Shown one piece after another: positions 3,210-20,514 of a stretch of DNA of 64,000 bases (its first letter is position 1; the number at the start of each line of letters is the position of its first letter). A program made the position numbers and the translations under genes. The DNA comes from Cladopsammia gracilis (Eukaryota > Cnidaria > Anthozoa > Scleractinia > Dendrophylliidae): NCBI GenBank assembly GCA_022457155.1, contig JAJGOT010000508.1, forward strand, positions 415,501-479,500. The letters are read 5' to 3'. The notes beneath the pieces were generated by a model. The model saw nothing but the letters and a program-made list of their open reading frames with translations. It was not told where the DNA came from and did not search any database.

Positions 3210-3282
3210 AGTAGTTAAGGACTTGGCGGCACCAGATCAGTTTTGCAAAACTGATCTGATGCCAAGCCAAGTCTTAACTACT
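3210..3282. repeat. Palindromic terminal hairpin (left tip)
   Basis: The outermost 73 bp read almost the same on both strands. Two ~31-base arms meet at the central CAGTTTTGCAAAACTG (3238-3253), with a one-base indel and a few mismatches in the arms. As single-stranded DNA it would fold into one long hairpin. Confidence 0.9.
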
Positions 3283-3450
3283 TCCCATCTGTTGGATTAA
3301 AAAATATAGAAAAATCAAATGAAACTATATGTTAATAAAAACAAATGGTGCGTTTATTCCATTGCGTGATTTCCTTTGCGTTTATTCCATTGCGTGATTC
3401 CACATAATAGAATCCTTTGCGTGACACAATTCTCGGAAACACAGGAAGTC
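3210..3450 (+). repeat. Left terminal inverted repeat of the Polinton
   Basis: It aligns with the reverse complement of 20,314-20,514. The left copy is ~40 bp longer because the GCGTTTATTCCATTGCGTGA segment at 3351-3400 is present twice. Outside the tip, the match includes an A/T-rich block (about 3292-3345) and a block ending in a TCTCGGAAACACAGGAAGTC motif. Confidence 0.92.
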
Positions 3451-3588
3451 TTTGATTCTTAGAAAAGTTTATGACGTGGAAATATTTTTCAATTTTATAG
3501 TCGTCATAAAAAAGATCCTTGTAACAAATAACAATATATCTTCTCCAATCTAATTATAATGGATACCAATATTTGATAAAAGAGTGAT

Positions 3589-6500
3589 TTATTTTGTTTT
3601 ATAATGTCCGTATGCATAACTATTAATTCCATCTTCTAATAAATATATTTTATCATCAAAACAAGAGAGTGATACCTTGTTAATCTCATAACTATGAAGT
3701 TTATGGTTTTGACTTCTTATAGTTTTCATCTTATGATACATCTGTTTATTTTCAAATAGTGTTTGTTTATAATTTTTATGTTTGATATTATTTTTTTATA
3801 ACATTCTTTTTAATCCCTTTAGCAGTCTTACCTCCTGATTGGTTGTCTTTTCTATAGCTATACATTTTTTATCTCAATCCGACGAATTCGGTTATTGGTA
3901 TACCTGCTGCCTCATCTTTGAATTTACCAATTACATTTTTATTTGTCTTGTCAAAATATTGTGAATCTTGAGCATAATCACTGTTATCGAATCTATTTTT
4001 ATCCTTCCAGAAGTCTGAGTAGACATCTTCAGCTTCGATTTCATATGTAAGACTATCGGTGTCGGTAAATAGCAGCTTAGCTTTGTCTCCATACTTCTTT
4101 TTGATGTAGTTATAATGAAAATCATACATTAATGTCTTACTAAGATCTAAGATACACATACCCACATAAGCCGGCCTGTTTAGGGTTAGTGTTTCTTTAA
4201 TCTTATGAACAGCTACAAGGTTTTCATTGAAGATCTTACTACTTACATATGTTGGTTTAGCAGCCATTTTTAATAGTTTCTTTTCATCAGTTACTAATCT
4301 GACATCTACTCTCTTTCTGATATTTTCCATTGTTTTTCCAAATACTGAATTATTCATAAGTTTGAAGAAATCTTTCTCAAAAGCATTTTTTGCATTAGTT
4401 CTTTTCTGTGTGTTGAAATCAATATATTGCTTCAACCATGCAGACTGATCAAATTCTAATACTCGATGAACTTTTGTTATTTTTAATCCAAGATCTGTAT
4501 ATAATTGAAGGTTTCTATAGTGTAGAACATATTTTTCTTTGTTTATTAATGTTGGAATCAGTTTTTGTACTATACCTGTTGATATATTATATTTGGTAGC
4601 TATTTTTTTACAATACCCAGATAGCATATCTTTATTTACACAAACCCTCTCAGCAGCTAGTGGATAGTCGTTATGAAGGTCATGCAACTCTTTGGGGTAT
4701 TCTAAATCAACTTCTAATATTAAACCTTTTTTGCTGTTTTCATTGTATTTAGCTAAATCTATGTTGTTAATCTGTTTATCTGTCATCCATCTAAAACCAC
4801 CAGTTGGTAGGTATTGTGACATAGCCCAACCATATAAATTATTTGCGTCTAGATACATGATATACTTTGAGGGCGCCTTCTCATCGTATGTATTTTCATG
4901 TATTTATTGTTAGCTTTACCGTATCGATTGGCTATATATGATATACCACCCCTCATACCTTTTTCAATAAATTGAAACATATCAATGTCAGTCATTAGTT
5001 CCAATTTGATATCAGTCATTTTTAGCATAGCATCCCATGACAAACCAGGAGATGTGAAATAATGACATGGATCAAGTTTATAGTATTCTAAGCATGTTCT
5101 CCTAAAGTTTTCAAACACATCAGCTAATAGAAGGATGTCAGATTTCAAATACAAGTCATGATACTCACCCATTGTTTAGAGCATGAATGTTTCCCATACA
5201 GTCTGAGCATGTTGATAATCTTTATTGCTTATATGCTCATTATTCATGATACTAAAAAGTCTTCTTTTGTTGGTAGTTGTTCATTGAATTTATCAAAATT
5301 GTCCATATAATCATAAGGGTAGACCCCCTTTTGTGCCATTAAATCAAGCTTTTTACCTTTGAATTTTTGAGAGGTATATTTTAATGATTCTTTTGGTAGA
5401 TTACTTACTAGTTTTTCTAAACTGGAACTCATGAATTGGAAACTGTCAATAAATGTTAGATGATTACCAAGCATGAACGCCATATATTTTTCCATGTTGT
5501 TAGGAATTGCATTGACGTTCATTTGACACTTTTCACCTTTCTTATTTGTATATGTATGCTTCTTGACTATTTCACCAATCTCTTGCATTATAAAATGACT
5601 GTCATATCCACGGAGATTGTGAAATATAACCGGTATCTTATCAGTTAATCGGAAGTTAATATTACAATCTTGATGAGCTGATCCTCTATACTGACCAGTA
5701 ATATGACAGTGATCTCGAACTCGAATATCTTTCTCTGTATACTTTTTATCACATATATGACATTTATCAGCTTTTTGGAATTCTTCTTCATCCTTTTTTG
5801 TCATTTTTAATGGTTTGTTAAAATATCTTTTATTCATATTACGACAATATTTAACTTCTTCTAACATAGCTTCCATAAATTTGTTAACAGCTTCTTCACC
5901 TCTATAGATCTGTACTGGTTTACTATATTTATCATCATAACAGCATACAACCTTATAACCATAACCACAATCAGTATGTTTTTGATACGATTCAGTATAG
6001 GATTTGTCACTGTATGGTCTGCATCCTTCTATTTTTTCTACAATAGCTTCAAAATCTGCATAGATGACAAATGGTACAGGCAACTGCTTATGGAAGTTGT
6101 TGAATTTCAATATGTTATTATCCTTTGACGGCATTTTTATGGCTTGTTTTCCATTAATTATGATGCAATTTTCTTTATGATTTAATAATACTCTTTCACT
6201 ACTGAAACATTGTAAACAATACATACAAAAATGCTTTCTATGTTCATGTTTTGTTTGATTGTACATAAATTTATTGAAGTATTTTATTAATACATAATGT
6301 TTGTTTTCACCTTCTGTGATCAATAGTAAATGCATTTGATCTTCAAATTTTTCTTGGGATATGTAAATAGGAAATGGTTGCTTTTCTTCATATCCAAATA
6401 CATTGATATTGATATTATTCTGTTTCTCAATTTTATTATACTGTTTTTGATTGACTGGAAATTCAATTCCTGAGTAATTCAACTTTTCAATAAATTCTTT

Positions 6501-7337
6501 ATCACTTTTTTTAATTCTCTGTGGGTATTTTTCTTGGGGATTCAAATGTCTGATGTGACACCACCTAAAGCATTCATTATCCTCATTTTTCATATTTATC
6601 AATCCCTTTGCACTGTTTCTGAGTTCTTGTGGTAGTTTAATGTATGAAGAGCCTCTCATTGGTTGATATTTTACTATGTTAATATAATGATTATCAACCG
6701 ATTTAACAGTCCAACCAGACCCTTCAGATATCCATTGAGCTATCTTATTCAAGATTTGCTGTTTTGACAATTGTAGTGATTTAGTAATTTCTAGATTATT
6801 TATGATTGTTTGAGCTAGACTGTTGAAATATGCGGTCTTATACACTATTTCTCCGTCTGACATTTTTGTAAATGTTACCTTAAGCGTTTCAACAAATTTC
6901 AGTCCGTTCATCGATGTTAATATGTTTATAAGCTGGTATTCAATACCCTTTCTAGTGTTTTGTGGTTGAACTAATAGGTCTTTATCGTTTTTAATTGTGA
7001 TTTCATAGGATTTAGTATAACCTTTTAGAGCTTTGTCTGTTTGCTCTATTTTAGTTCTTGGAGCAGGAACTGGTTTTTCTGCAACTGACTTTTTAGTTCT
7101 AGGTGCTGGAACTGGTTTAGCCCTGAATTCCAATGGTGGAAGAATTATATTGTTTTCATAATCTTGAACCATTTGATTTACACTCTTATGAGGTGCTGGC
7201 ACTGGTTTGTAAGTTCTTGGTGTTGGAACTGGTTTGGTATCATCTACCACAATAATTTTAGGCTTCTTATTCTGTTGCTTTAAAAGCAATTTGATGAGTT
7301 CTGATTTACTAAGTTTCTCAAGATCACTCTTGTTCAT
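3589..7337 (-). pseudogene. Protein-primed family B DNA polymerase (Polinton PolB), multiply broken
   Basis: The product would be ~1,240 residues. The N-terminus has a SAP-like helix and three to four PxPxPRT motifs (residues 35-100). A C2HC finger lies near residues 370-390, Exo I as YADFEAI near 425, an endonuclease VII-like zinc motif (CHIC...DHCHITG..RG...C) near 525-560, and Exo II as FHNLRGYDSHF near 572. The palm holds motif A DANNLYGWAM, motif B NNSVFGKTMEN and motif C FTDTDS. Breaks: frameshift near 5245-5252, stop at 5176-5178, frameshift near 4885-4895, stop at 3869-3871 and frameshift near 3800-3810. The true end is the stop at 3589-3591. It would replicate the linear genome from terminal protein primers. 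A TAGATA-type promoter motif lies 16 bp upstream of the ATG. Confidence 0.95.
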
Positions 7338-7445
7338 TTTATATACTATAGTATAGATAATTCTTTATATGTATTCAGTTGGTGCGTTTAAGTATGGTTG
7401 AGAATTTAAGTGATCCAATCATGGATCCATTAAACTATATGTTTC

Positions 7446-7695
7446 TTAGTTTTCATGGTGTGTTTCAATGATCAAATCATGGATCCTCCTATTAATATTA
7501 TCTATATGTTTATTCGTTTTCAAATGACAGAATTTTCCAGCAAGCGAGTAGTTGATATTGTTATTGCATACACGGCAATACCACTCTTTATTTAACATAT
7601 AACGAGTTTTGGATCTTTTAATAGCTTCTTTTTTGGCTACGGGTGTGGTATATAGGCGGTCGTCCTCTACCTCTTTTTATTACTTCTTTTTCCAT
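7446..7695 (-). pseudogene. Small AT-hook plus single zinc-finger protein, frameshifted
   Basis: From the ATG at 7695 the product begins MEKEVIKRGRGRPP, which contains an AT-hook-like GRGRPP. One base shift near 7650-7660 opens a frame that contains a Lys-rich linker and one finger of the form CRVC, then H and H separated by five residues. It ends at 7446; total about 83 residues. The promoter-like TAGATA motif lies at 7711. The combination suggests a small DNA-binding protein. It is too short for automatic gene calls. Confidence 0.6.
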
Positions 7696-7916
7696 TTCTA
7701 TATAATACTATAGATATTCTTTTAAATAGTTTGCATTGATGCGTTTACATATAGCCAGAAACATTAATATTTTTGGCTACCAATGAATAGCGAATGCAAA
7801 GATATAAATATCTCAGAAATTTCTGGGATACTTGTAAATAGTAACATCTCTTTAAAACAATTTTGTATATCCCTTTAAATCCCTGATTAGTGTTCTAATG
7901 TTACTGATTGTATTTT

Positions 7917-8303
7917 TTAAACCCATGTGCCCTGAATCAGATGAATATTTCTACATCTTTCCAAATCTGCGTTGCTGCTTGTTTTTGTTGTGCCAGATAT
8001 ACTATTTTCTTGTTTGAGATATTTAATATTATCCATTTTGGTGGTTTTTAAAACGTCATATGAATTGTCATATCGATCAAGTTCCACGTCATTTATAATG
8101 CATTTTATTAGATCTTTCAATGTGATATCATCATCCATTTCTTCTATCTTACGCGTGTATAAATTCATCAATCGTCTTTTATGAGATAACCAATTGATTC
8201 GTTTATTATGTGTTTCTATTTGCTCCTCTAAAATAGCTATCTCTTTTTCATGGTAGATTATTTTTTCTAATATTTCAGATGAATAACTTTTGAAGTTTTC
8301 CAT
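7917..8303 (-). CDS. Coiled-coil protein of unknown function
   Basis: The gene encodes 128 residues from an ATG at 8303. The first ~60 residues form a strongly charged heptad-like helix (EILEKIIYHEKEIAILEEQ), followed by an acidic MDDDI segment and a polar tail. It lies 14 bp downstream of the integrase gene on the same strand. A GTTAGATA motif at 8316-8323 provides the same promoter-like sequence seen at other genes of the element and overlaps the integrase stop. I do not recognise a family. Confidence 0.6.
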   Translation of the reverse strand: MENFKSYSSEILEKIIYHEKEIAILEEQIETHNKRINWLSHKRRLMNLYTRKIEEMDDDITLKDLIKCIINDVELDRYDNSYDVLKTTKMDNIKYLKQENSISGTTKTSSNADLERCRNIHLIQGTWV

Positions 8304-8316
8304 ATTTGTATATATG

Positions 8317-9264
8317 TTAGATATTTTTAACGTCCTTTAGAGGTACCCATGAATTGAACTCTTTTGGATAACCAGACCATGATACCAAAGCTTGTTTTTT
8401 CTTATAGTCTCGTTTGATGACCTTATCTATACGAAAAACATCTTGTTTAGCATTCAATAACTCCTGTTGATAGAAAGATCCTTCTATTGATTCATCATTG
8501 AGATCTTTTAATTTGTAAGTTATAGGATTAGTGTATTGTATCTTATCGACTGTAAACACTTCTTCAGTCCAGTTTGGTGTATAACCCTTGTCGAACACAT
8601 TCCGTTTATACTTAGATATTCGAATTTTATCACCAACTTTGAATTTTGGTTTATATGATAATAGTTCCGTATCATAGAGATTGAAATAAACAGTTCCTTC
8701 ATTCTTTTTCATAGATGCTTCAATAGGTTTCATTTTGATACTTGAATGCTTTGTACTGTTGTATTCATTTAATAGTTTTGGTAACATGTCTAAATATTGT
8801 GTTGTATTTTGAGCTGTAAATTGTTTCCACATTTTAGATTTTAATGTTCTGTTAAATCTCTCAATAACAACAGCTTTACCTTCATTGAAAGTAGAATACA
8901 TCTCAATATTATTTTTCTTTAGCCAGTCTTTGAAAGTTTTATTATAGAATTCAGACCCTTGGTCTACCCAAATAAATTTAGGTTTCCGTTTGGATTTTTT
9001 AATAACATCATCAAATGATTCAGTAATTGTATTACCTGTTTTATTTTTAATAGGGATGCTCCAAGCAAATTTTGAAAACACATCAATGATGTTTAACAAA
9101 TATCTATAACCTTTATTCCATTTTGAAAACTTCTGCATTTCTACAAGATCAGCGCTCCAAATATCATCTATTCCATTGACAATAACTCTTCTAGTTCTGA
9201 ATTTTCGTTTGATTGGCTTATGTAATTCATCGGCTAATTGTTGAGCCCAATCATTTTTACTCAA
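8317..9264 (-). CDS. Retroviral-type integrase with C-terminal chromodomain
   Basis: About 315 residues. The DDE core is visible: Asp in WSADLVEM (~residue 40), Asp in WVDQGSEFYN (~100) and Glu in VIERFNRT (~135). An SH3-like basic segment follows (KVGDKIRISKYKRNVF), and the last ~45 residues are a chromodomain ending in VSWSGYPKEFNSWVPL. It would insert the element into host chromatin. The frame has no ATG before the first catalytic Asp: it opens after a stop at 9298-9300, reads through a TTG at 9264, and overlaps the end of the phospholipase gene. This raises the possibility that it is made by frameshifting from that gene (see 9276-9282). The core looks undamaged. Confidence 0.92.
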   Translation of the reverse strand: MSKNDWAQQLADELHKPIKRKFRTRRVIVNGIDDIWSADLVEMQKFSKWNKGYRYLLNIIDVFSKFAWSIPIKNKTGNTITESFDDVIKKSKRKPKFIWVDQGSEFYNKTFKDWLKKNNIEMYSTFNEGKAVVIERFNRTLKSKMWKQFTAQNTTQYLDMLPKLLNEYNSTKHSSIKMKPIEASMKKNEGTVYFNLYDTELLSYKPKFKVGDKIRISKYKRNVFDKGYTPNWTEEVFTVDKIQYTNPITYKLKDLNDESIEGSFYQQELLNAKQDVFRIDKVIKRDYKKKQALVSWSGYPKEFNSWVPLKDVKNI

Positions 9265-10066
9265 CGCCGCTTCCCGTTTTTTGACTTCCTTTTTTGTTTA
9301 ACACCAAGGCCTAATTTTTGTTTAGTGTTTATCATATTTCTAGCTAACCAACGACCCCATTGTCTTTCATTATAAGGTACATCATCCAGTGACTTAACCA
9401 TTTTTCGATCTGCTTTATTTTTACATTTGACTTGATCACTTTTTGTTTTATTTCCACAAACACTGTAATCAACATCATGCTGCATACTGACAGCATCTGT
9501 TTTACCCGTTGGTTGCTGATAGATCTCAAGTATTTGACCAGTGTTTGGTTCATATTTCAATTGCTCATCAAGGGGATTCCCAGGTCCTGTATAATGATGT
9601 CCAGGTAGTACAAAGCCCTTCTTGGGTGCTATCTTTAATATAGCTTTATGAATATCAATCCCACTACCTTTATGTAATGGATCTAGTTTCTTACTAATAT
9701 CTGAAGTTAAACTATCTAAGGCTTGATCCAAATATTTATCAGCCATTCCTTTTAATTTTTGTTTATTATAACCAGATTTGATTACTTTTGATGCTCCGAT
9801 TCTGCCTAAATTATAAAAACCTTTTAAAGCACTTTTAGCTGCAATTTCGCCAAGACTGTGACTACCTTCTATATTTAAAAAGCCCCCATCTTGTGAGGGC
9901 TCAATTAGTTTCCCTGTTTTTGTTTTTTAAATTTGGTTTTTGTTATACTACATTCAGCGCAAGTGCATTTCAACATAGTTCGACCATTTTTAGTTTTCAC
10001 ATATCGTTCGCTTCCTGGAACACATTCAGTGACTTTCTTCTGTCTAACACAATATGATTTTACCAT
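9261..10066 (-). pseudogene. Zinc-ribbon plus parvovirus-type phospholipase A2 virion protein, frameshifted
   Basis: The ATG at 10,066 starts a ~53-residue basic, Cys-containing module (YCVRQ... CTCAEC) that stops at 9905 in its own frame. A shift in the A-rich stretch near 9910-9930 continues as TGKLIEPSQDGG and runs open to the stop at 9261. The PLA2 domain shows the calcium loop LPGHHYTGPGNPLD and the catalytic MQHDVDYS (His-Asp). This is the layout of the parvovirus VP1-unique PLA2 used to breach endosomal membranes. The zinc module lacks one expected Cys (CVRQ instead of CVxC). The two parts could also be separate genes, in which case the second lacks a clear ATG before position 9746. 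Confidence 0.8.
9276..9282 (-). promoter_or_regulatory. Candidate -1 ribosomal frameshift site between PLA2 and integrase
   Basis: On the minus strand the heptamer A AAA AAC lies in the zero frame of the phospholipase gene, five codons before its stop. The integrase frame is exactly the -1 frame. A hairpin with 6-bp arms (GTTGAG/CTCAAC) starts ten bases after the heptamer (9265 down to about 9240). All three elements of a classical programmed -1 site are therefore present. Function is inferred. Confidence 0.45.
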
Positions 10067-10078
10067 TATATATATAAG

Positions 10079-10620
10079 TTAGATATTTCTGAAATAATGT
10101 TCGAGGAATCTCTCATTCTTCATTGTGTTATATATGTCAAATACTTGCAATAAATTATAATACGAATTCCCCTTATTCATTTCGTTCAGAAAGTATAAAC
10201 AGAAGTAGCCACATGTAGACGTTTTTATGTTTTGGATTTGGTTGTTTTGGTGAAGCAGTGTCAAATTCCTTCTTTTCGCATGATTTACGATCTCTTGAAA
10301 TGGAGGCATACCAAAACTGTCAAAATAATTTATCACGTTGTCTTTTACATAAGTTGTAACCCAATGAGATCCTGCCATATAACTAGGTTCTAGATTGTAA
10401 ATAAATAATGCTTGGCTATGATTATGTGGAACTGTTTCATCCCTTGACAGCACATCATTTACTGGGATGTTTAAATATCTGCACCATTTTATTAGATCGT
10501 GATTACTTAACGGGATGTCTTTGTCGAATTTGGGGTTTAGAATATTGTCCCTATAAGTGGGATGCTGTTGAATGGGCTGTTTCTTCCGAATAGCAAGCCT
10601 TTGCCTCTTTTCCCTGTCTT
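10079..10620 (-). pseudogene. Adenain-like (Ulp1-fold) maturation cysteine protease
   Basis: The catalytic order His-Asp-Gln/Cys is visible: GSHWVTTY, then NYFDSFGMPP, then TSTCGYFCLYF. The conserved PLSNHDLIKW block lies upstream, and the C-terminus is FLEHYFRNI. The frame has no ATG before this block. It is open back to an A10 run near 10,617-10,626, where a one- or two-base shift joins it to the preceding hydrophobic protein. So it is either fused to that protein, or its own start has been lost. In adenoviruses and Polintons this enzyme cleaves capsid precursors at (M/I/L)xGx-G sites, several of which occur in neighbouring proteins. Confidence 0.85.
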
Positions 10621-11327
10621 TTTTTTTTGGTTGTTTTTTTTATGCCCATACCAGTTAGATTATCCCATCTACCTATAAATGGAGGTGGTCTATATATACC
10701 TAGTCTTGGAGCTCCCGTACCCTTTTTTCTCCCACCAATTCGGGGCGCACCACTACCAGTTCTACTTGTTAAAGCATTTAGAAGAAGTGAGACACCAATG
10801 CTTGCCAGTAGAGTTCCAAGGAATCCACCTGATTGTGTTTTTGTGGGTCGTACATGAACACCTGATCCTGACTGAAGAGCATTCAATATATCCTGTTTTT
10901 GTTTAGTTGTTAAAAGATGCTTATATTCTATCAGCTTATTAATTTTATCTTGGGGTATAAGAAAACCACCCGACTGTATACCTCTTCCAGATATTGCTTT
11001 AACCACTTGAGAAGCACCTTCAGAAGCCAAGCCGGCTAGAGCTGATAGACCAAGGGTTTTACCAATAGTAGGTAAAGCTGCACGTCCAAGGGTTAGAATG
11101 GTAGTTAACAAACTTCCACCGACTTGTTTTCCAATATTTGTTTTCGCAAGCTTAATGTCCATACCCTTACCCAATGCCCGATTCTTCTCCAACCTTTTTT
11201 TTACCATTGCTGGGACATATAGAGTATCATTCCCATGAAGAGAGTCGTTTAAAAGCCTGAGAACGATCGTTTCCCTTTTATGGAAAGCATTGCTAAGATT
11301 TTTCTTTTGATTGTCAGACAATTTCAC
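10551..11327 (-). CDS. Hydrophobic, Gly-rich pVI/pX-like minor virion protein
   Basis: 258 residues. Residues 70-110 and 168-190 are hydrophobic and could be amphipathic or membrane-active helices; the C-terminus is Lys-rich. Two adenain-type consensus sites are visible: ISGRG at residues 112-116 and LTGMG at 224-228. The frame begins with GTG at 11,327 just inside an out-of-frame ATG, so a small indel may have hit the start. The last ~20 residues probably reflect a frameshift in the A10 run near 10,620 leading into the protease. The family is common in Polintons; the comparison with adenovirus pVI is by analogy of composition, position and cleavage sites. Confidence 0.6.
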   Translation of the reverse strand: MKLSDNQKKNLSNAFHKRETIVLRLLNDSLHGNDTLYVPAMVKKRLEKNRALGKGMDIKLAKTNIGKQVGGSLLTTILTLGRAALPTIGKTLGLSALAGLASEGASQVVKAISGRGIQSGGFLIPQDKINKLIEYKHLLTTKQKQDILNALQSGSGVHVRPTKTQSGGFLGTLLASIGVSLLLNALTSRTGSGAPRIGGRKKGTGAPRLGIYRPPPFIGRWDNLTGMGIKKTTKKKRQGKEAKACYSEETAHSTASHL

Positions 11328-11439
11328 ATTAATCTCATAAAGTTAAGTCATTTGTTGTATATAATATATGTTATATAATTTTCTGGTTATAAAACATATA
11401 TGAAATAATGATATTATTTGATTAGTAATTTATTACTTT

Positions 11440-12691
11440 TTACACTATAACCAATTCATTTCCCACTTTGTCAATGACAACTGTCTCTTCATATAGGACT
11501 ATAGCATGTTTGCTGAAATCGAAAGGACTATTCCCAGCACTATTGGCGTTCAGTTTATACCTGAAGATCAACTGCTTTGGGTCTCTTATTACTTTCTCTG
11601 TTTGATATGATAGATCGAAATAGATTAGTGGATAGAGACCATTGTAATTCGATAGGTTAAGCTGTGTACCGCTGTTGTAATCATTCTTTCTCATACCATA
11701 GGACATTAAATCATTGAACATCCTTACTTTTGATTCTGAATCGTATTCAGTCTCTGGGTAGAATACTCCATTACCGTATTCCAATCGGCATGTTGTCAGA
11801 CTGCAAGCATTATCACCTGAATTTACTTTAAAAGTGTCAAACAGGTACGGATTCGCCTCTGCATTGTTTGTTTTAGCTCTTTGTAGATATACAAATATAG
11901 CCTTAACATTATCAATACTGGATGAGATTTGGAAGAATCCACTACTATGTGTTGGTGCGGACACCTCATACATTTCTCTCAGATATGTCCATTTATCATC
12001 TTTCAAAAAAGAACTAACAAACTTATCATATAGACTGTCCTTAGGTGTCAATTTTGGTACCCAAAGTAGTAATCTATCAATAACAACTCGTCCGTCATCT
12101 GCTGCACCTGCCTTAAATATTAATTCATTGTCATTCTGCAACTGTATATTAAACTGAAGTTGCATTGGGACTAACATTCGACCCTCTAGCTCTTCGAAGA
12201 AACTGTAACGATTAAGAGGTATGACTACATTGACATCATGGTTACCTGTCGTTAAAAGACGTCTTGACTCAAACCCTGTATTAGTATTGGCTGTAGTGCC
12301 ATCTGTGTCCAAATACCATAAAGAGTTTTTAGCAACACTACGAGCAAAATCGTCACTAGGTTCTTGACATAAGTCACTTTATGGAGATTATCAGTATCAT
12401 ACACGATCTTTCCTGCTGATTTTATCATCATGTGACTAATCAAACTATGGGCTCCATTAATAATTGTTATACGATCTGCACCATAGGCTGTACCATCAGC
12501 CAATTTTTGTACCTGGAGCTGGACCTCAAAATAGCATTGTACCAATCGAAAAAGCTCGATCGATCATTAATTGTAAATTTATACCCATTTTTGTCTTGGT
12601 GTTGATTGTTAGCTGGGGCTCTGATTACATCATCAAGTTTGAATCGTACCAACTCATATCTTTGTAGAAATTCACTTGTTCTGAAAGACAT
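11440..12691 (-). pseudogene. Double-jelly-roll major capsid protein, two frameshifts
   Basis: The ATG at 12,691 starts MSFRTSEFLQRYELVRFK. The frame shifts near 12,531-12,537 (after DWYNA) and again near 12,355-12,362 (after VTYVKNL); the last and longest part is open to 11,440. Total about 417 residues. Blocks such as IPLNRYSFFEELEGRML and the beta-rich C-terminus match the Polinton/adintovirus hexon-like capsid as I know it. It would form the pseudo-hexameric capsomers. A GTTAGATA motif lies at 12,713-12,720, 21 bp upstream of the start. Both indels lie outside long homopolymers. Confidence 0.85.
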
Positions 12692-12770
12692 TATATTATT
12701 ATGTTAGATAATTTTACAATTATATACCATATTTTGTAATATATAGATGTTTTCAATCATTTTATTGATT

Positions 12771-13169
12771 CTATACTACTCTTACTCTACGCCTTCTTTT
12801 CACACCAGATCCAGATATCAATCTATTGAGTATCATATCAGTACTTTCATCTTGCTGTTGCTGTTTAATGGGTGAGGATGGAACATTTGCCGTTTGTCTT
12901 GTAGCTCCTTTTCTCAAATTTGCCAATCTTTTCATTATTAGGTCTCCTGACTTCTGTGATACCGCCTTACCCAGTCGCTCACCTGCATGCGATATCCCCG
13001 ATTCTAGTGCCTTCTTTGCTTTTGGCTTAGCAAATTTCTTAAAAACAGCTGATGCCACACTCTTTAATGGTTTGAAAATATTACCAACGATAAGCCCAGA
13101 CCCTTTGTGTTGATATACAAATTTACCACGTTTTGGATGGTAAAATCTTTTGAATTCATATGGTTTCAT
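12771..13169 (-). CDS. Basic core-like virion protein with predicted protease site
   Basis: 132 residues, intact. Lys-rich N-terminal half, a short Gln run (near residue 104), and an Arg-rich C-terminus (KRRRRVRVV). An adenain-type site ISGSG stands at residues 118-122, just before the Arg-rich tail. It lies between the capsid and penton-like genes on the same strand. The features suit a DNA-condensing or internal capsid protein such as adenovirus pVII/pX, but homology is not established. Confidence 0.6.
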   Translation of the reverse strand: MKPYEFKRFYHPKRGKFVYQHKGSGLIVGNIFKPLKSVASAVFKKFAKPKAKKALESGISHAGERLGKAVSQKSGDLIMKRLANLRKGATRQTANVPSSPIKQQQQDESTDMILNRLISGSGVKRRRRVRVV

Positions 13170-13189
13170 TTTTATACTATTATGTTATA

Positions 13190-13993
13190 TTATTCTATCC
13201 TTTTCAAAATCAATGAAAAAGATGTATCTGCTCCATTCAGGTTAACTAATCTTCTTTTTCCATCGGTTATATAAATCCTTATACTAGAAATCGTTATCTT
13301 ATTCACAGGATTGTAGGTGACTCTCTGGGGTTCTAAGGTGAATGAATAACTAGGTTGGAGAACACTGGTTGAGAAGGAATAAATGATGTCGGTATCTTGA
13401 CCATCCACCAGGCTAGCATTAATCAGATCACAATGAACATTGAGGACATCTGTATCTTGAGATAGATTTGGAACCCTTGGTCCAATGTTTGTCCCACTTG
13501 TCAATACTATTTTATCGAAACCGATTAGATCATTAAAATTGGAATGTGTTAAATCAAGCCGATAATTCTGAGCTAATGTAACCGTGACCCTAAATGTTGT
13601 ATTATCGAATTCAAGAGTTATCGGATACGTATCACCAGTCTTCGTTATGTTCTTGATATATGTTATGTTATTGATATATATATTATATGGGAATACCGAA
13701 ATAAATTGTTGTTGTTGTTGTATTGAAGTCTGTATAATTCCATACTCCGGCTGGAAAGGTGATGTTGTTAAATGTTGAACCACTATCGGAGCTATATCTG
13801 ATTAATTGATTTCCATAAAATGAATTTACATTAAACCATGTAAAAGACATGTTAACGATTCGGTTAAGGCCGACCACATATTGAGAATTGCGATCCAATA
13901 TTATAGGCCTGTTAAATTTGTTGTAAAATCCTCTGGTTTATTATTCCATTGATTTTTTACACTATAAGATGATAAAACTATCTCTCGATCCAT
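13190..13993 (-). pseudogene. Penton-like (single jelly-roll) minor capsid protein, two frameshifts
   Basis: From the ATG at 13,993 the product starts MDREIVLSSYSVKNQW. Frameshifts lie near 13,905-13,920 and in the GTTGTT microrepeat near 13,705-13,720. Afterwards the frame is open to 13,190. The sequence is beta-rich with blocks VVGLNRIVNMSFTWFN, FPAGVWNYTD, DLTHSNFNDLIGF and NVHCDLINASLVDG, typical of the vertex protein encoded next to the capsid gene in Polintons. It would occupy the five-fold vertices. Confidence 0.75.
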
Positions 13994-14013
13994 ATATAAT
14001 ACCGTTACATAAA

Positions 14014-15073
14014 TTATATTTTGAAGTACTTATTATACAATTTATTATATTGTGGTCTATTTATTTCTGCAGCCTTTTGTAAAATATCCAGGATAGCTGC
14101 TCATCTCAAGGCTGGTATTCCCTGCCAATCTTTCACCAATAATCAATTCCAATTTCTTGAGAAGCTGCTTTATATCATTATAAAACATATTTCCACCTCT
14201 TGTTTTCTTCCTCGGCCTTTGATCCCGGAACCTTTTTTTGTTTTCAATTTTTTCTCATAGTGGTTTATGTATTCATTTAAAATCATTCTCCCGTCATCTA
14301 TTCTTTTATTGTATTCATCTCTTTGCTTTTCTGAATATTCCCCCCGTCTTAAATCGTTTTGTAACAGTTGCTTTATGGCCACTTAATTGCGCCCTTTTTG
14401 CTTTAGCATCTTTCACAATCTTTGTAAGAAAACTTTTAGTTTTTTTGTCTGTTATTTGTTCTTGATTCAATATTTTTGACACATTTTCATAAGTCATAAC
14501 TCCCATATCATCTAATATCGTATCATCAATATCATGATTTTCTAACATTTCATCAATCTCAGCCAAAGTATGTCCCTTTTCCTGTTCTTCTTCCTCTTGT
14601 TGTTTCATTATATCAGTATCATATTCGAATTCGGGCAATGTTTCATATTTTGGCTTAAAGTACGTAGGATCCACATAAATCTCCTTGTTTCCTTCAAAAA
14701 TATCTTTTAAAGATTCTTCATATGTTCGAGGTGCTGGAACAAGCTGTTTATCGTGCTGTGGTAGTACATAATCACCAAAATCAATCAGACCTTCTACATC
14801 CATTTCTTCATATGGATCAACATCGGGCATATAGTCAATACCAGGCTCGCCTTTCTTGCGTAGTTGCCTTTTTCTCAGAGGTAACCTTAAATCTATATTC
14901 CTATCAATAACATCATCTAATCTTGTAGTCACTGGTTTGAATACCTTCGCCAATGACTGTTGGCTGGTCTGCTGACTAATATCATGTTTCGTAATTCTAT
15001 CATGAACATAATTAATCTTATTCCCTAATTCAGATTTACTCTTTGCGAGTTCTTTCCACTTAAGTAAACTCAT
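14014..15073 (-). pseudogene. Acidic/basic virion-associated protein with PxPAPRT and cleavage motifs, frameshifted
   Basis: The ATG at 15,073 gives 252 residues: a basic N-terminus, a Tyr/Asp-rich middle with LVPAPRTYEE at about residue 110, an acidic QQEEEEQE stretch, and a Lys-rich end. The frame shifts near 14,375-14,395, again near 14,165-14,180 and near 14,090-14,100; the last stop is at 14,014-14,016. The segment after the first shift contains IKGRG, an adenain-type site. The VPAPRT motif recurs in the PolB N-terminus. I do not recognise the family beyond its frequent presence in cnidarian Polintons. Confidence 0.55.
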
Positions 15074-15131
15074 TTATTGTTATATTATTACATTACATAA
15101 AAATGGGAAATTATATATAAAAATAACGTTT

Positions 15132-15190
15132 AACATGGTGTTATACACCGTGTTATACACCGTGTTGTACACCGTGTTATACACCATGTT
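15132..15190. repeat. 12-bp direct repeats in the divergent promoter region
   Basis: Four tandem 12-bp units of the form GTTATACACCGT (third unit GTTGTACACCGT, fourth ending CAT) lie between the minus-strand gene ending its promoter at 15,073 and the plus-strand ATPase at 15,221. The array starts AACATGGTGT and ends ACACCATGTT, so it is also an imperfect palindrome. It is the only divergent gene pair in the element, which suggests an operator, enhancer or origin. Confidence 0.7.
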
Positions 15191-15220
15191 ATATTGAAAT
15201 AATATATCCATATAATATAA

Positions 15221-15857
15221 ATGAAAATACCAAATTATGACGTTGAAGACGATGTTGCCTCAAACTTTAAACAGTTATATGAATTCATGCCTGATCGATC
15301 ATTTCGGATGTTGGTTTGCGGAACCAAGCGGTTCGGGGAAAACTAATGCACTAATGCATATGATCATCCATCTGTTGTATTTTGATAAAGTATATCTTTA
15401 TGCTAAAAACTTAGAGCAGTCTAAGTACCAGTATCTTATGGATATGGTCCGACCAATAAGTGATGAAGTTGGCTATGAAGTTATCGAAGCAAACAACGAT
15501 GAGATTATTCCCGTTGAAGACATTGACTGTGACTCACAGAAATTAGTAGTATTTGACGATTTCGTATGTAATAAAAACCAAAAACCATTGGTCGACTATT
15601 TTATACGAGGAAGACACAAAAATTGCAGTGTGATTTATCTGAGTCAAAGCTACTATAAGACACCAAAAGACATAAGATTGAACTGTTCACATTTCTCTAT
15701 TTACGAATTCCCAAGTGCTAATGAGAAGAGTCTAATTTGCCGTGAAAACAGTATTCCAAAAGAATTATATGAGAAAGCAACTAAAGAACCATATTCCTTC
15801 GTATATATTGATAAGCCACGGAAATTCACAACTAAGAATTTCAATGGAAAAATATAA
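15221..15857 (+). pseudogene. FtsK/HerA-type (A32-like) genome-packaging ATPase, one frameshift
   Basis: The ATG at 15,221 follows a TATAATATAA box. A single extra base near 15,321-15,325 interrupts the Walker A motif. Downstream the frame shows SGSGKTNAL, Walker B KLVVFDDF at about residue 108, a sensor-like IYLSQSYYKTP, and a C-terminus RKFTTKNF. Length about 212 residues, as usual for Polinton ATPases. It would pump the genome into the capsid. The one-base lesion sits exactly in the P-loop. Confidence 0.88.
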
Positions 15858-15873
15858 TATAACTCAATTATAT

Positions 15874-17628
15874 ATGAGTTACTCAAATGGAATTTTACCA
15901 TCGTCAACATCAACGGCGACACCACAACGTGGATTACCTGGCGTAGGGTTCAAATTGACAGATGATGGTAATTATGATATGCAAAACAAGAAATTAGTTA
16001 ATGTCAAGGATCCTAAAAATTTTAAAGATGTTGTCAACAAAGAGTATGGAGACACACATTATTTAAAGTTAGATGGAACAACTCATATGACTGCAGATTT
16101 GGATCACAAATATGGATACGGATGAAAACAATGATTTCAGTGCCGTCAATATGATCACTTTAAAAAAGTATCATCCTGATGCTCCAGCTCACACTCATGA
16201 AGTGACTAAAGATATTGATTTGAAGGAGATGTACAATATTGTCCAATCAAAACAACAAACATGGCATGATTTGGGAGCACATTATAACAATCTAGTTTCT
16301 TACAATGATGTCAAAAATATATTCTTATCCCGCAAAGAGACGTTTCCAATGGAGACTAGTTTGGATATGGGAAATCACACTATTTTTAATGTGAAAGACC
16401 CAACCATTGCCGACCAAGGCGCAAACAAAAGATATGTGGACGACCAATCCGCTAAAAAGCTTTCTTTGGAAGGTGGAACAATGACTGGAAACCTGGATAT
16501 GAATTCACAACAAATTAACAATGTTGCAGCGCCAACTCTTGAACATCAACCCACGCCAAAATCTTATGTGGATAGTGGCGATAAAAATCTTGATCTCAAG
16601 ATAGGAAATGTGGTAGTCCACACGATAGAATTAGAAGAGAAGCTCAAAAAATATGTAAATGAATCACATATCACGTCAACCTCGCGTCCGAAAGATGAAT
16701 TCCGGTATCTGATGGAAGACATTGATGAATCCAGCTCTGAACATAATATGACAGTGACTGGAATAACTGATTTTTGAAGTTCTCCACATCATTTCAATAA
16801 GAAGGCGTACGATTTGAAAATAACAAAAGATCTTTTTAATGAATACTCTGGGAGACTTGGATTCAATATGTACAAATTACCAGAAGGAGAATACACTATT
16901 TGCATTGAATTCTTCCCCGCGTCAATGGATGGTGTTAGTGTCAATGTCGTGAGCACAAGTCTGAATATCAATCAACAATCAACAAAGAAGTTTTCGAATC
17001 CAATTGGTGGCTCCGCCGGTTATACAAGATCCATCATCCACATGCATAAATGGCAGATTTCTCCACCTGAATTCATTTTCCTGGATTTGAACTGGAATGG
17101 AACCGCTGAATCAGCTGCAAAAGGAGATGCAAATCTGATCATATATGGTGTCAAAGGTTCTCAACCTGATGTTGAAAGCAGCGTCTTCGATGCACCTTTC
17201 ATTTTTGAAAACCAAAAGATGGTCATGGAGGCTGATTTGGATATGAATGGTCATAGAATATTAAATCCTTCATTAACATCAAAAACATTCATTACGGCTT
17301 ACTTCGAAAAATCACGGCATCCAAGTCGCTTTTTTTGAATTTTGCAAATCCATTTCAAATTATACCTTATGATTGTATTTTAAAAGGCATCAATTGTTAC
17401 TTTGGCTCATTAACTAATTCTGATTTTCTTATTTCTTTAAAAGTCAGAGTCAGTGGAACCAATAGACAAAATCAAAGCTTTAACTCAACAGAAAATGAAA
17501 GGCGACAGGAATTTAACATAAATATGAACCTATCAAAACATGATATAATATGGATTGAAATTTGCAAAAAAAATACAACTGAACAGATCACGCATGATGA
17601 CGTTGTATTTGCTATTGAATTTAATTAA
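15874..17628 (+). pseudogene. Tail-fibre-like attachment protein with phage-type repeats, broken
   Basis: The product starts MSYSNGILPSS at 15,874, 16 bases after the ATPase stop. Three repeats of the type (M)xGxLDMNxxxIxNVxxP...YVD occur: YDMQNKKLVNVKDP, TSLDMGNHTIFNVKDP and MTGNLDMNSQQINNVAAP. They resemble shaft repeats of phage tail fibres. A beta-rich C-terminal half could be a knob. Lesions: frameshift near 16,105-16,120, stop at 16,775-16,777, frameshift near 17,325-17,340. Total about 585 residues. The position suits a receptor-binding fibre; this role is inferred. Confidence 0.65.
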
Positions 17629-17663
17629 GCCGTAGCGTTTGAAATTTAATTTCCCCAACTAAA

Positions 17664-17880
17664 ATGGCCTTTGAAATCAAAATAAATTCTGAAAAACTGA
17701 AAGAAATTATACAAGCAATGAAGAGATTGAAACTTTGTTCCTGCATAAAAAATGCAAAATCACCCACTTAATTACAAACCGCCGTGGCGGTTTGATTTCA
17801 ATCATATTGATCTGAATGGTAGAAACCTTATTGGTTTACCCAAACAGATTCAAAAATTCATTCAGAGTTTTAATATATAA
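17664..17880 (+). pseudogene. Small unknown protein, probably one frameshifted ORF
   Basis: An ATG at 17,664 opens MAFEIKINSEKLKEIIQ and stops at 17,771. A second frame starting at 17,751 continues to 17,880 with NYKPPWRFDFNHIDLNG. A shift in the A6 run near 17,746-17,751 would join them into about 72 residues. No family recognised. It lies between the fibre-like gene and the next unknown. Confidence 0.35.
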
Positions 17881-17907
17881 TTATCTAATATATTGATATA
17901 TATATAA

Positions 17908-18309
17908 ATGGCAATTCTCACACAGTCAATTAATTTTTGTAATAAACTTTTCACAACCCAAAAAAACTTACATCCAAATACTAAAGATGAAATATTAAAA
18001 TCGGCTTGAATATATCAATTTTTGTACGTTAACTATTTGAATGAGCCAGTATCATTTAACCAAATATTAGAAAAACACCCTGACATTGGATTAATAGGAC
18101 CAGGTTCTTGTACTATAAACACCAAATACCAATTTTTAATTAAACATGCTATTTTTCATGATGCATTTGGAAGATTTTACATTGACTATGAAAAGGGGCC
18201 TGGGTACACATATTGCTGCCTTTCATTGCCTAAGAAAATAAAAAGATCTCCAATAATGGGTCAAATAAGTGGTGTATTACATTGTCTTCTTTCAAATCCT
18301 AAAATATAA
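17908..18309 (+). pseudogene. Unknown 133-residue protein with one internal stop
   Basis: The ATG at 17,908 is preceded by TATCTAATATA and TATATATAA, the promoter-like pattern of the element. The frame is interrupted only by a TGA at 18,007-18,009. The second part has blocks GLIGPGSC, HAIFHDAFGRFYIDY and CCLSLPKKIKRSP. I do not recognise the family. Confidence 0.5.
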
Positions 18310-18329
18310 TTATCCAAATATATAATATA

Positions 18330-18818
18330 ATGACTAAAACAGATATATTCAATTTTAATCACATAGATAAAAACATCAGCCAAGAAAAATTATCTGAAAT
18401 CAAAGCATTGTATAAATTTTATCATAAACGCTTTTGGTGCTATACGAAGGCTTTCAAATATTTCAAGAGATTAAATTTGGCTATGAATTTAACATCAGTT
18501 TCTTTAGTAGCCGCTGGTACAATAGCTGGTTCAATTACATTAAACCCTATTATTTTAGGAGTAATTAGTGGTAGTGGTTTATTGCTTAATACATACAGTG
18601 AACTTAAGAATTATAAAAAGAAAATCGAATTGTCTCATTTTACATTCACAACATATCAAAAAGTATTAGTTGATTTACGCTCATGTCTCAGAGGAAATCA
18701 ATTCAACCATACCGCATTTATAAATGAAATGAGACAGTTAGATGAAATAATCATCGATCTTTGTCCTCTTGCCGATAAATTTGAGAAACAGTATGATAAA
18801 AAATTCACTTCCGAGTAA
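18330..18818 (+). CDS. Small membrane protein with central hydrophobic hairpin
   Basis: 162 residues, intact. Order: polar N-terminus, YHKRFWCYTKAFKYF helix, a ~45-residue hydrophobic Gly/Ala/Ser/Val/Ile region (residues 52-92) able to form two membrane passes, then a basic, helical C-terminal half. It is the counterpart of 263-924 in the left element. A TATCCAAATA motif and TATAATATAA lie directly upstream. A role in viral membranes is a guess. Confidence 0.7.
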   Translation: MTKTDIFNFNHIDKNISQEKLSEIKALYKFYHKRFWCYTKAFKYFKRLNLAMNLTSVSLVAAGTIAGSITLNPIILGVISGSGLLLNTYSELKNYKKKIELSHFTFTTYQKVLVDLRSCLRGNQFNHTAFINEMRQLDEIIIDLCPLADKFEKQYDKKFTSE

Positions 18819-18940
18819 ACTTTTACGATAAACTTTACTAACAAACTTTACCATAAATTTTTATTTTGTTACTCATTCAAAGGGGTTTTTCCCTTTACAT
18901 GACATATGACTTCCTGTTTTTCTGAGAATCACGCAACAGG

Positions 18941-19515
18941 TCACCTTTTAATAATTTTGCTGACATCATTCTTTATGTATAGTTTATAAACCTGTTTTCA
19001 CCAAGTCTCATTGAATTTTAATGTCTTCATTGACTTCGTTACTTTAATACTCTTGTATGGAAGCTCAAGCATCCTAAATAATTGCTTGATAACAAATTTA
19101 ATACTAATCATCCGTTTACGGTTATTGTTAACCTGCGATAATACTTCATTAATCAAAAAGCGAATATTCTCAGGATTTTCTCTCTATTATCATTACTGAT
19201 TTGTACATGATTCTGTTGTGCTATATCATTGACAACGTTTAAAATATGATATTTTCTTATATACACACTCTTTCTCGACATTTTATATTTGTTATCATGG
19301 AAATCAACGTACTCTTTAACATAATCATAACCATAAACGGTACCGCAATTTAGACAGACGCTCATACCATCTATATTATTCACATCTTGTTCACTACAGC
19401 ATGACTCGACCACTCTCGCACTATTATCAACTTCTGCTAATTGCTGATCACAAAAGGGACATATAGGCTCTTCCATATTCTCCAATTCATTGTGAATTAC
19501 TGAATTACAATTCAT
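18941..19515 (-). pseudogene. Poxvirus VLTF3-like late transcription factor, broken
   Basis: The N-terminus has CPFCDQQ and then a CLNCGTVYGYDY zinc ribbon. It is followed by KYKMSRKSVYIRKYHI and a helical domain, the hallmark arrangement of VLTF3-like factors in large DNA viruses and Polinton relatives. The frame shifts near 19,150-19,160 and meets a TGA at 18,998-19,000; the natural stop appears to be 18,941-18,943. The gene lies at the right end, opposite in strand to its neighbour. A TAATATCTC motif lies upstream of the ATG. Confidence 0.75.
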
Positions 19516-19628
19516 TCTATACTATTATATGAGATATTATTTTTATGCTACTACATATTACGTCACGACACCACAGTCTTGGTCTACTTACAAATGTCAC
19601 GCAATAGTAAACATAGTAGAGTCCCATT

Positions 19629-20012
19629 TCAATGTCCAATCGAATCCTGTGATCGTAATGGGTATGGTGTTGCTTTACTTAAAAGCGACCTCCTCCTCCT
19701 CTTGAGTTTAAATGTTTGTTTCTGTACTGTTTTCTTGGTATTTATGTCAGTCTTGCGCTGAATCTCACTCGCCAACAAACGTCGAGACTGTTTATTTCTA
19801 ACGGCCACTCGACACTGACGAATGGTTTCCTCAATAATCTCCAACTCTGTATCACATTCCTCCAAGTTTCGAGCATCAAGAGTATTGAAAAAATCTTGAA
19901 GGTTCATCTGAATTGTGGTTTTTAAATGTTGCATTGTGTACTCCTTGGCATCGTTTATGTTATTGCAAATATTCTGATAGCGCTGGTCCAATTGCTTCAG
20001 AGAGTAAGGCAT
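19629..20012 (-). CDS. Coiled-coil, C-terminally basic protein of unknown function
   Basis: 127 residues. The first ~80 are helical with heptad spacing; residues 90-115 are strongly basic (KLKRRRRS). It is the last gene before the right terminal repeat. No family recognised. Intact frame and codon pattern like its neighbours suggest that it is real. Confidence 0.5.
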   Translation of the reverse strand: MPYSLKQLDQRYQNICNNINDAKEYTMQHLKTTIQMNLQDFFNTLDARNLEECDTELEIIEETIRQCRVAVRNKQSRRLLASEIQRKTDINTKKTVQKQTFKLKRRRRSLLSKATPYPLRSQDSIGH

Positions 20013-20313
20013 CTTCTCTAAACTTCACAAATGACTTTCACTGAAAAGTTACACAAATTAATAACTTTTCACTGAAACGTTTCACGATTGTGTAGTGAAA
20101 ATGTGAGCTTTTCATTGGTTGAAAAAATCATACGACCGTCTCGTGATCTGAAACAATAGGCTATACGTGATGACTCATTTCCTGTTCACAAGCGGAAAAT
20201 TCTTAGACAATGAGATCATCGACTTCCCATGTTTCCGAGAAAGTCACGCAATGTGACCATCCGTGTCGTAATGACTAATTTTCCTGGGGAACCCCCTATT
20301 GTATGACATCATC

Positions 20314-20514
20314 GACTTCCTGTGTTTCCGAGAATTATACCACGCAAAGGAAATCACGCAATGGAATAAACGCACCATTTTGTTTTTATTAACATATAGT
20401 TTCATTTGATTTTTCTATATTTTTTAATCCAACAGATGGGAAGTAGTTAAGACTTGGCTTGGTATCAGATCAGTTTTGCAAAACTGATCTGGTACCGCCA
20501 AGTCCTTAACTACT
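20314..20514 (-). repeat. Right terminal inverted repeat of the Polinton
   Basis: It is the inverted partner of 3210-3450 and ends at the terminal dinucleotide complementary to AG. The inner edge is the motif GACTTCCTGTGTTTCCGAGA at 20,314. Variants of that motif also occur at about 18,909 and 20,221. Confidence 0.92.
20442..20514. repeat. Palindromic terminal hairpin (right tip)
   Basis: It has the same structure as the left tip: two arms around the central CAGTTTTGCAAAACTG (20,471-20,486). Both tips keep the same arm asymmetry in inverted orientation, so the hairpin is an inherited part of the element rather than a chance palindrome. Confidence 0.9.

Follow-up and report, generated by a model that had tools for sequence, protein, structure and literature searches.

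Do the terminal repeats of a Polinton end in a folded structure, is such a structure maintained among related copies, and what might it do? These questions are raised by an element in 64,000 nucleotides of the genome of Cladopsammia gracilis (GenBank assembly GCA_022457155.1, contig JAJGOT010000508.1, positions 415,501 to 479,500, forward strand), a stretch that we call the window and by whose positions all features are numbered. The element occupies 3210-20514, with its coding genes between terminal inverted repeats whose arms measure 136 nt and are 99% complementary. It is a Polinton by its family-B DNA polymerase (PolB), integrase and ATPase, its inverted repeats, its AG...CT ends and the 6-bp target duplications found beside copies elsewhere. 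The features of its ends are as follows.

3210..3399, no strand: left terminal inverted repeat, made of hairpin and sub-terminal repeat (inverted-repeat search)
20342..20514, no strand: right terminal inverted repeat (inverted-repeat search)
3210..3282, no strand: left tip hairpin, 73 nt, with outer arm 3210-3245 and inner arm 3246-3282 (palindrome scan, fold)
20442..20514, no strand: right tip hairpin, 73 nt, mirroring the left tip, with one T:A pair for C:G (palindrome scan, fold)
3210..3215, + strand: end motif AGTAGT, or (AGT)2, whose mirror ACTACT ends the inner arm at 3277-3282

Hairpins at both tips of the element

A sequence-only reading of this locus had placed 73-bp near-palindromes at 3210-3282 and 20442-20514, and both positions proved exact. 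When the window was scanned for palindromes, the two tips ranked first and second, with a score of 23 each, and the next best scored 13. The maxima in ten order-1 Markov sequences as long as the window were 9 to 11. Both near-palindromes are centred on CAGTTTTGCAAAACTG and lie at the extreme outer end of each terminal inverted repeat. When folded with DNA parameters, the left tip scored -28.2 and the right tip -26.5, and the left tip, shuffled by mononucleotide 300 times, gave a mean of -5.6 (standard deviation 2.07, minimum -12.3). A chance palindrome is ruled out by the Markov maxima and by reversed-pattern controls in the genome (mostly 0).

The arms of each hairpin are asymmetric. At the left tip the outer arm reads GGCGGCACC versus CTTGGCATC in the inner arm (as complement), and the right tip reads GGCGGTACC / CTTGGTATC. 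The asymmetry described earlier was therefore present as stated, with the correction that one base pair differs between the tips on both arms (C:G left, T:A right). The window copy lacks a target-site duplication (flanks TTTTGG versus ATCTTT).

Copies of the tip across the host genome

Related copies were collected from this one host genome (878 Mb), and the relatives read are close, with integrases 90-100% identical. When the left repeat was searched against the genome as DNA, the best 40 of 658 candidates were scored, and all 40 matches extended over the tip; 30 tips, including the left tip of the window copy, were excised and read. A pattern for the tip core matched the genome 482 times (245 + 237), and its reversed-pattern controls gave 0 and 0. 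Among the 14 tip-core texts listed, five were of the window type and nine had an A/T apex. Besides the window copy, seven copies were read at both ends. In six of these a perfect target duplication of 6 bp adjoins the outer arm, the seventh matching at five of six bases, so that the hairpin lies at the very end that was integrated. In four of the seven, the left and right tips were identical within the element.

A second route to the tips started from the integrase, for which 126 matches (90-100% identical) of 4791 candidates were scored and the expected tip stretch was read for 20 chosen copies. One of these (L065) ran into the end of its contig, leaving 19, and a tip palindrome was found in ten. 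A third AGT precedes the tip of L074; it may extend the end motif or belong to a target that ends in AGT. Elsewhere, L104 has a perfect palindrome of 66 nt (485-550), which does not resemble the tips and lies amid repeated TACG motifs. Among the viral contigs of IMG/VR, no relatives were found by integrase (as a single protein or as an alignment) or by tip pattern.

Changes in step on both arms

The claim that each repeat holds a hairpin was strengthened by a second tip type, a different palindrome of 75-78 nt present in four of ten tips (L070, L079, L090, L094); we refer to the window type as type I and to this one as type II. When L070 and the window tip were aligned by hand, column by column, 10 pairs had changed on both arms with pairing kept and 22 were the same. 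Two further pairs formed only in the window type and two only in the L070 type (one of these being an added apex pair), and the three columns unpaired in both were the inner-arm TT and a C/T mismatch. Each type has one extra base in its outer arm, at positions 8-10. The apex also varies, from GTTTTGCAAAAC to AAAAAAATATTTTTTT or AAAAATAATTATTTTT, and is palindromic in these three forms; the last of them, a third apex seen in C75 and C84, is self-complementary as well. Tips mixing a type I with a type II arm numbered 0 and 0 genome-wide versus 201 tips with two type I arms. This linkage could also reflect descent, and the weight of the argument lies with the change of both arms in step. Judged from these comparisons, the hairpin is genuine and its structure is under constraint.

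Could the palindrome serve instead as a double-stranded site for a symmetric complex, in which dimers of integrase or terminal protein bring the ends together without extruding a hairpin? The element encodes an integrase with a chromodomain, target duplications directly adjoin the tip, and AGATCA/TGATCT beside the apex is common to both tip types (except in the L094 outer arm), all of which would suit such a site. A length of 73 nt is great for a single dimer site, however, and the arm asymmetries are conserved. The apex, moreover, has changed while staying palindromic, unlike a sequence-specific site. Because the apex can change fully and remain palindromic, we favor structure over a sequence-specific apex site, and we consider the double-stranded alternative rather unlikely.

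A related concern is that the palindrome may be a mutational by-product, in which past fold-back self-copying and hairpin-templated repair keep the arms alike without selection. Traces of such events can be seen: the outer arm of L028 has acquired the inner-arm TT, a partial conversion; the inner arm of L031 bears outer-arm sequence at its base; and at one pair, four copies show a C.A intermediate. Conversion should nevertheless erase the asymmetries. We tallied these over 42 rows, which represent 41 tips (L032 = L034) and 15 distinct sequences; L092, a window-type tip, stood outside the tally, its inner junction TCCCGT having missed the cutting pattern. The mismatch was present in all 15 distinct tips, the extra outer base in all but L032 (14) and the two extra inner bases in all but L028 (14). 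Simple copying between the arms is thus disfavored by the conserved asymmetry, and also by the fixed polarity of the tips described below, and we regard this explanation as unlikely.

A single arm order in integrated copies

The sequence-only reading had likened the mirrored asymmetry to flip/flop states and had asked whether arm orientation varies between copies. Under ordinary hairpin transfer of the type seen in adeno-associated virus, both arm orders should be found in the population, and the asymmetry of the arms makes this testable. The first sample of 30 tips had a single arm order throughout, a result biased by the choice of those tips for their similarity to the window. Genome-wide, inner junctions in the observed orientation numbered 461 (231 + 230; reversed-pattern controls 0), versus two candidates in the opposite orientation (1 + 1, in C84 and C1193; controls 0). 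We read the C84 candidate as a point change because its spacing of 13 bases is that of the ordinary inner arm, a flop requiring 12; it was judged by its spacing. The C1193 candidate has a spacing of 8 and lacks the extra outer-arm bases, and we do not read it as a true flop. A flop search restricted to type I (at most two mismatches) gave two places, with one match in the forward and none in the reverse reversed-pattern control. One place is a tip of the usual order, and the other has lost its outer arm and carries a mosaic inner arm, with outer-arm sequence at the base of that arm.

Polarity was also assessed by position, for 110 distinct tips among the matches listed. Integrase matches on contigs with tips numbered 27, and among the matches listed 18 of these had tips within 22 kb on both sides, four on one side and five on neither. 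The tips nearest to integrases had the expected polarity in 39 of 40 cases; the one with the opposite polarity (C277) may mark where an adjacent element begins. Tips that follow each other at 12-24 kb among the matches listed were +/- in 32 cases, -/- in two, +/+ in one and -/+ in none. Two loci stand apart in their arrangement. Three tips of the same polarity in C169 (184260, 201487, 218751) are spaced 17.2 kb, suggestive of a head-to-tail arrangement of elements. At L031/L033 (G000 C1189, ~255330) the outer arm is lost near the apex and a sequence like the sub-terminal repeat lies ~200 nt outside, which marks a rearranged end.

The arm order is thus fixed, and flip/flop states were not found. 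The two junctions that match the flop pattern and the outer-arm sequence at an inner position of the truncated L031 tip are what could be cited in favor of ordinary flip/flop transfer; set against 461 ordinary junctions, with neither candidate having flop spacing, and against the polarity of the integrase-nearest tips, we consider it extremely improbable. Flip/flop in integrated copies is contradicted by the same two sets of counts.

The broader comparison with parvovirus ends survived in part. The tips are self-complementary hairpins, as proposed, but no Rep/NS1-like domain (HUH nickase-helicase) was found by Pfam in the 20 of 24 element open reading frames (ORFs) of at least 80 amino acids that the scan covered, and flip/flop was not supported. 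A rolling-hairpin scheme may still be imagined in which the 3' hairpin primes synthesis and a nickase resolves it asymmetrically into one orientation, as at the left end of minute virus of mice (MVM). It would suit a 3' end that is self-complementary and in which a mismatch and bulges are conserved. The accessible text of PMC1185569 describes, for MVM and the LuIII left end, a foldback end with an asymmetric mismatch, asymmetric resolution (MVM) and a report that one end (LuIII, left) occurs in a single orientation. Fixed polarity by itself is compatible with such a scheme and does not exclude it. Unlike those viruses, the element has an integrase, encodes a B-family polymerase in place of a detected Rep/NS1 and shows fixed polarity at both tips, not one. 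Such rolling-hairpin replication therefore appears improbable.

The hairpin as an exchangeable unit

Hybrid ends offered a further view of the tip. In L067 a window-type hairpin (100% identical) is followed directly by a sub-terminal repeat of the L070 type, which over 70 nt is 97.1% identical to L070 and 56.6% to the window. This junction occurs exactly at 13 places genome-wide, including L067, and at eight more with one or two mismatches, at least one of which, C1234 = L019, is a normal tip of the window type. Three pairs of exact junctions (C328, C654, C1018) are oppositely oriented at distances of 16.8-17.9 kb, like the two ends of an element. The reverse hybrid junction has three candidate places, each with two mismatches. 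Given the occurrence of the L067-type junction across the genome, the tip hairpin acts as a unit, or cassette.

A possible role in copying the ends

What might such a tip do? The folded shape probably matters for the copying of the ends. Polinton replication is protein-primed according to the literature, as far as its accessible text shows. In vertebrate Mavericks, the available part of PMC8097293 gives (AGT)2//(ACT)2 as the commonest end motif and ties end-motif repeats to jumping-back during protein-primed replication. We tentatively favor, at somewhat less than an even chance, the view that the tip is a structural cis-element that would provide a built-in mini-panhandle origin. Replication by the element's family-B polymerase would leave an end single-stranded, presumably by strand displacement, and the outer 73 nt of that end would form a fold-back. 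Where this is the 3' end of the displaced strand, the inner arm (AGTAGT...) would then pair with the terminal ...ACTACT-3'. Such pairing could recreate a duplex end like the parental one, with its (AGT)2 priming motif, and pairing with the other end of the element would be unneeded. The tip would thus fold a single-stranded 3' end into a duplex one, and in this it would work like a Streptomyces telomere. The asymmetry (the extra outer base, the two extra inner bases and the mismatch) might serve to distinguish the outer from the inner arm, and so the true end from its folded copy. An origin function of the tip hairpin is plausible; packaging and protection, which the sequence-only reading also named, are candidate roles. 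Adenovirus rebuilds such a duplex end by pairing its two ends.

Several observations weigh against the origin reading. Nine of the 19 sampled integrase copies had no tip palindrome in the ~5.6 kb read. In one of the nine (C61) core matches lie further out on both sides, in another (C341) a tip match lies 11.6 kb off on the other side, and in C273 no tip occurs within 22 kb among the matches listed; the others fall outside those listed matches. The five of 27 integrases mentioned above, with no tip within 22 kb among the matches listed, point the same way. The shortened apex at C86:29130 pairs imperfectly. Evolutionary compensatory events are few, because most copies are near-identical, and the same compensation could arise if one arm had been copied into its partner by fold-back. 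The evidence, finally, consists of sequences from a single genome with integrases at least 90% identical. The sequence-only reading had named related tips without the palindrome, or drift that does not preserve pairing, as what would contradict it; neither was found among the readable tips, to which the nine integrase copies just described contributed none.

In a further reading, this Polinton lineage would join protein priming to hairpin ends of the parvovirus kind that are always resolved in the same orientation. We consider this hybrid unlikely. If true, it could illuminate the exchange of replication strategies among Polintons, bidnaviruses and parvoviruses.

Relation to known end structures

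The element resembles Polintons/Mavericks (polintoviruses, adintoviruses) in its PolB, integrase, A32-like ATPase and candidate adenovirus-type protease (a weak match), in its inverted repeats and the 6-bp target duplications of other copies, and in the (AGT)2//(ACT)2 end motif, which PMC8097293 describes in its accessible text. It differs from them, so far as the accessible literature goes, in the hairpin that occupies the outer 73 nt of either repeat and whose asymmetry is conserved. The term "hairpin" is absent from the accessible text of that vertebrate Maverick paper. In the available part of a paper on a cryptophyte Polinton-like virus, the sole stem-loop is RNA and the term "palindrome" is absent. 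Hairpin tips are likewise unmentioned in the titles and abstract openings of the papers listed in searches on Polinton/Maverick ends, a set made up mostly of papers outside subscription. In the literature searched, to the extent of its accessible text, we found no report of a Polinton end with a folded hairpin tip, which appears to be a new variant in that respect.

Streptomyces telomeres offer a concrete comparison. As described in the accessible text of PMC4513846, they have protein-primed ends whose extreme tips contain palindromes able to fold when single-stranded, and the combination of terminal protein and tip palindromes is likened there to parvovirus ends. They differ in having an internal origin, patching of 3' overhangs and several palindromes, whereas here there is one hairpin and the origins would be terminal. 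No protein in common with them was found in the element, and none was searched for. Casposons are also PolB-encoding transposons, some with palindromes inside their inverted repeats, but they are prokaryotic and use a Cas1 integrase, and a conserved asymmetric tip hairpin is not mentioned in the available text (PMC4046053). Bidnaviruses have PolB and inverted repeats, both proposed to derive from Polintons, yet their repeats are said, in the accessible part of PMC4061559, to form no parvovirus-type hairpins. Bidnavirus repeats, of proposed Polinton origin and said to lack hairpins, join Streptomyces telomeres and parvoviruses as concrete points of comparison.

The copying of Polinton ends has so far been inferred from adenovirus and phage relatives. 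A compensated, asymmetric hairpin in hundreds of copies points to a particular end structure open to assay, and shows that the extreme tip is exchangeable as a cassette.

Genes of the element

The coding features between the repeats are as follows.

3869..7337, - strand: DNA polymerase B region, frame broken (three ORFs, Pfam)
8317..9264, - strand: retrovirus-like integrase (rve) with chromodomain (PF00665, E 1.9e-13)
10079..10453, - strand: adenovirus-type protease-like ORF (PF00770, E 0.0032, under the curated cut-off)
15237..15857, + strand: A32-like packaging ATPase (PF04665, E 6.3e-10)

Of the three polymerase-region ORFs, the one at 4849-5172 matches PF03175 (DNA_pol_B_2). Another, at 5244-7337 (-), contains an Endonuclease_7-like stretch (Pfam), and the third, at 3869-4858 (-), has no Pfam match. 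Since the region is broken into three ORFs, the window copy is degraded. On the question of a jelly-roll capsid protein, the ORFs at 11440-12545 and 13190-13783 gave no match in the Pfam scan.

An ORF at 9261-9746 (-), adjoining the integrase, has a phospholipase A2-like domain (PF08398, E 2.3e-8), and in several integrase homologues (e.g. P0010, P0013) the integrase and phospholipase A2-like domains are fused. The small ORF at 19153-19515 (-) has CxxC pairs that by eye resemble a TFIIB-type zinc ribbon, with weak Pfam matches. An imperfect 30-nt inverted repeat lies at 15131-15191, between the ORF at 14315-15073 (-) and the ATPase gene.

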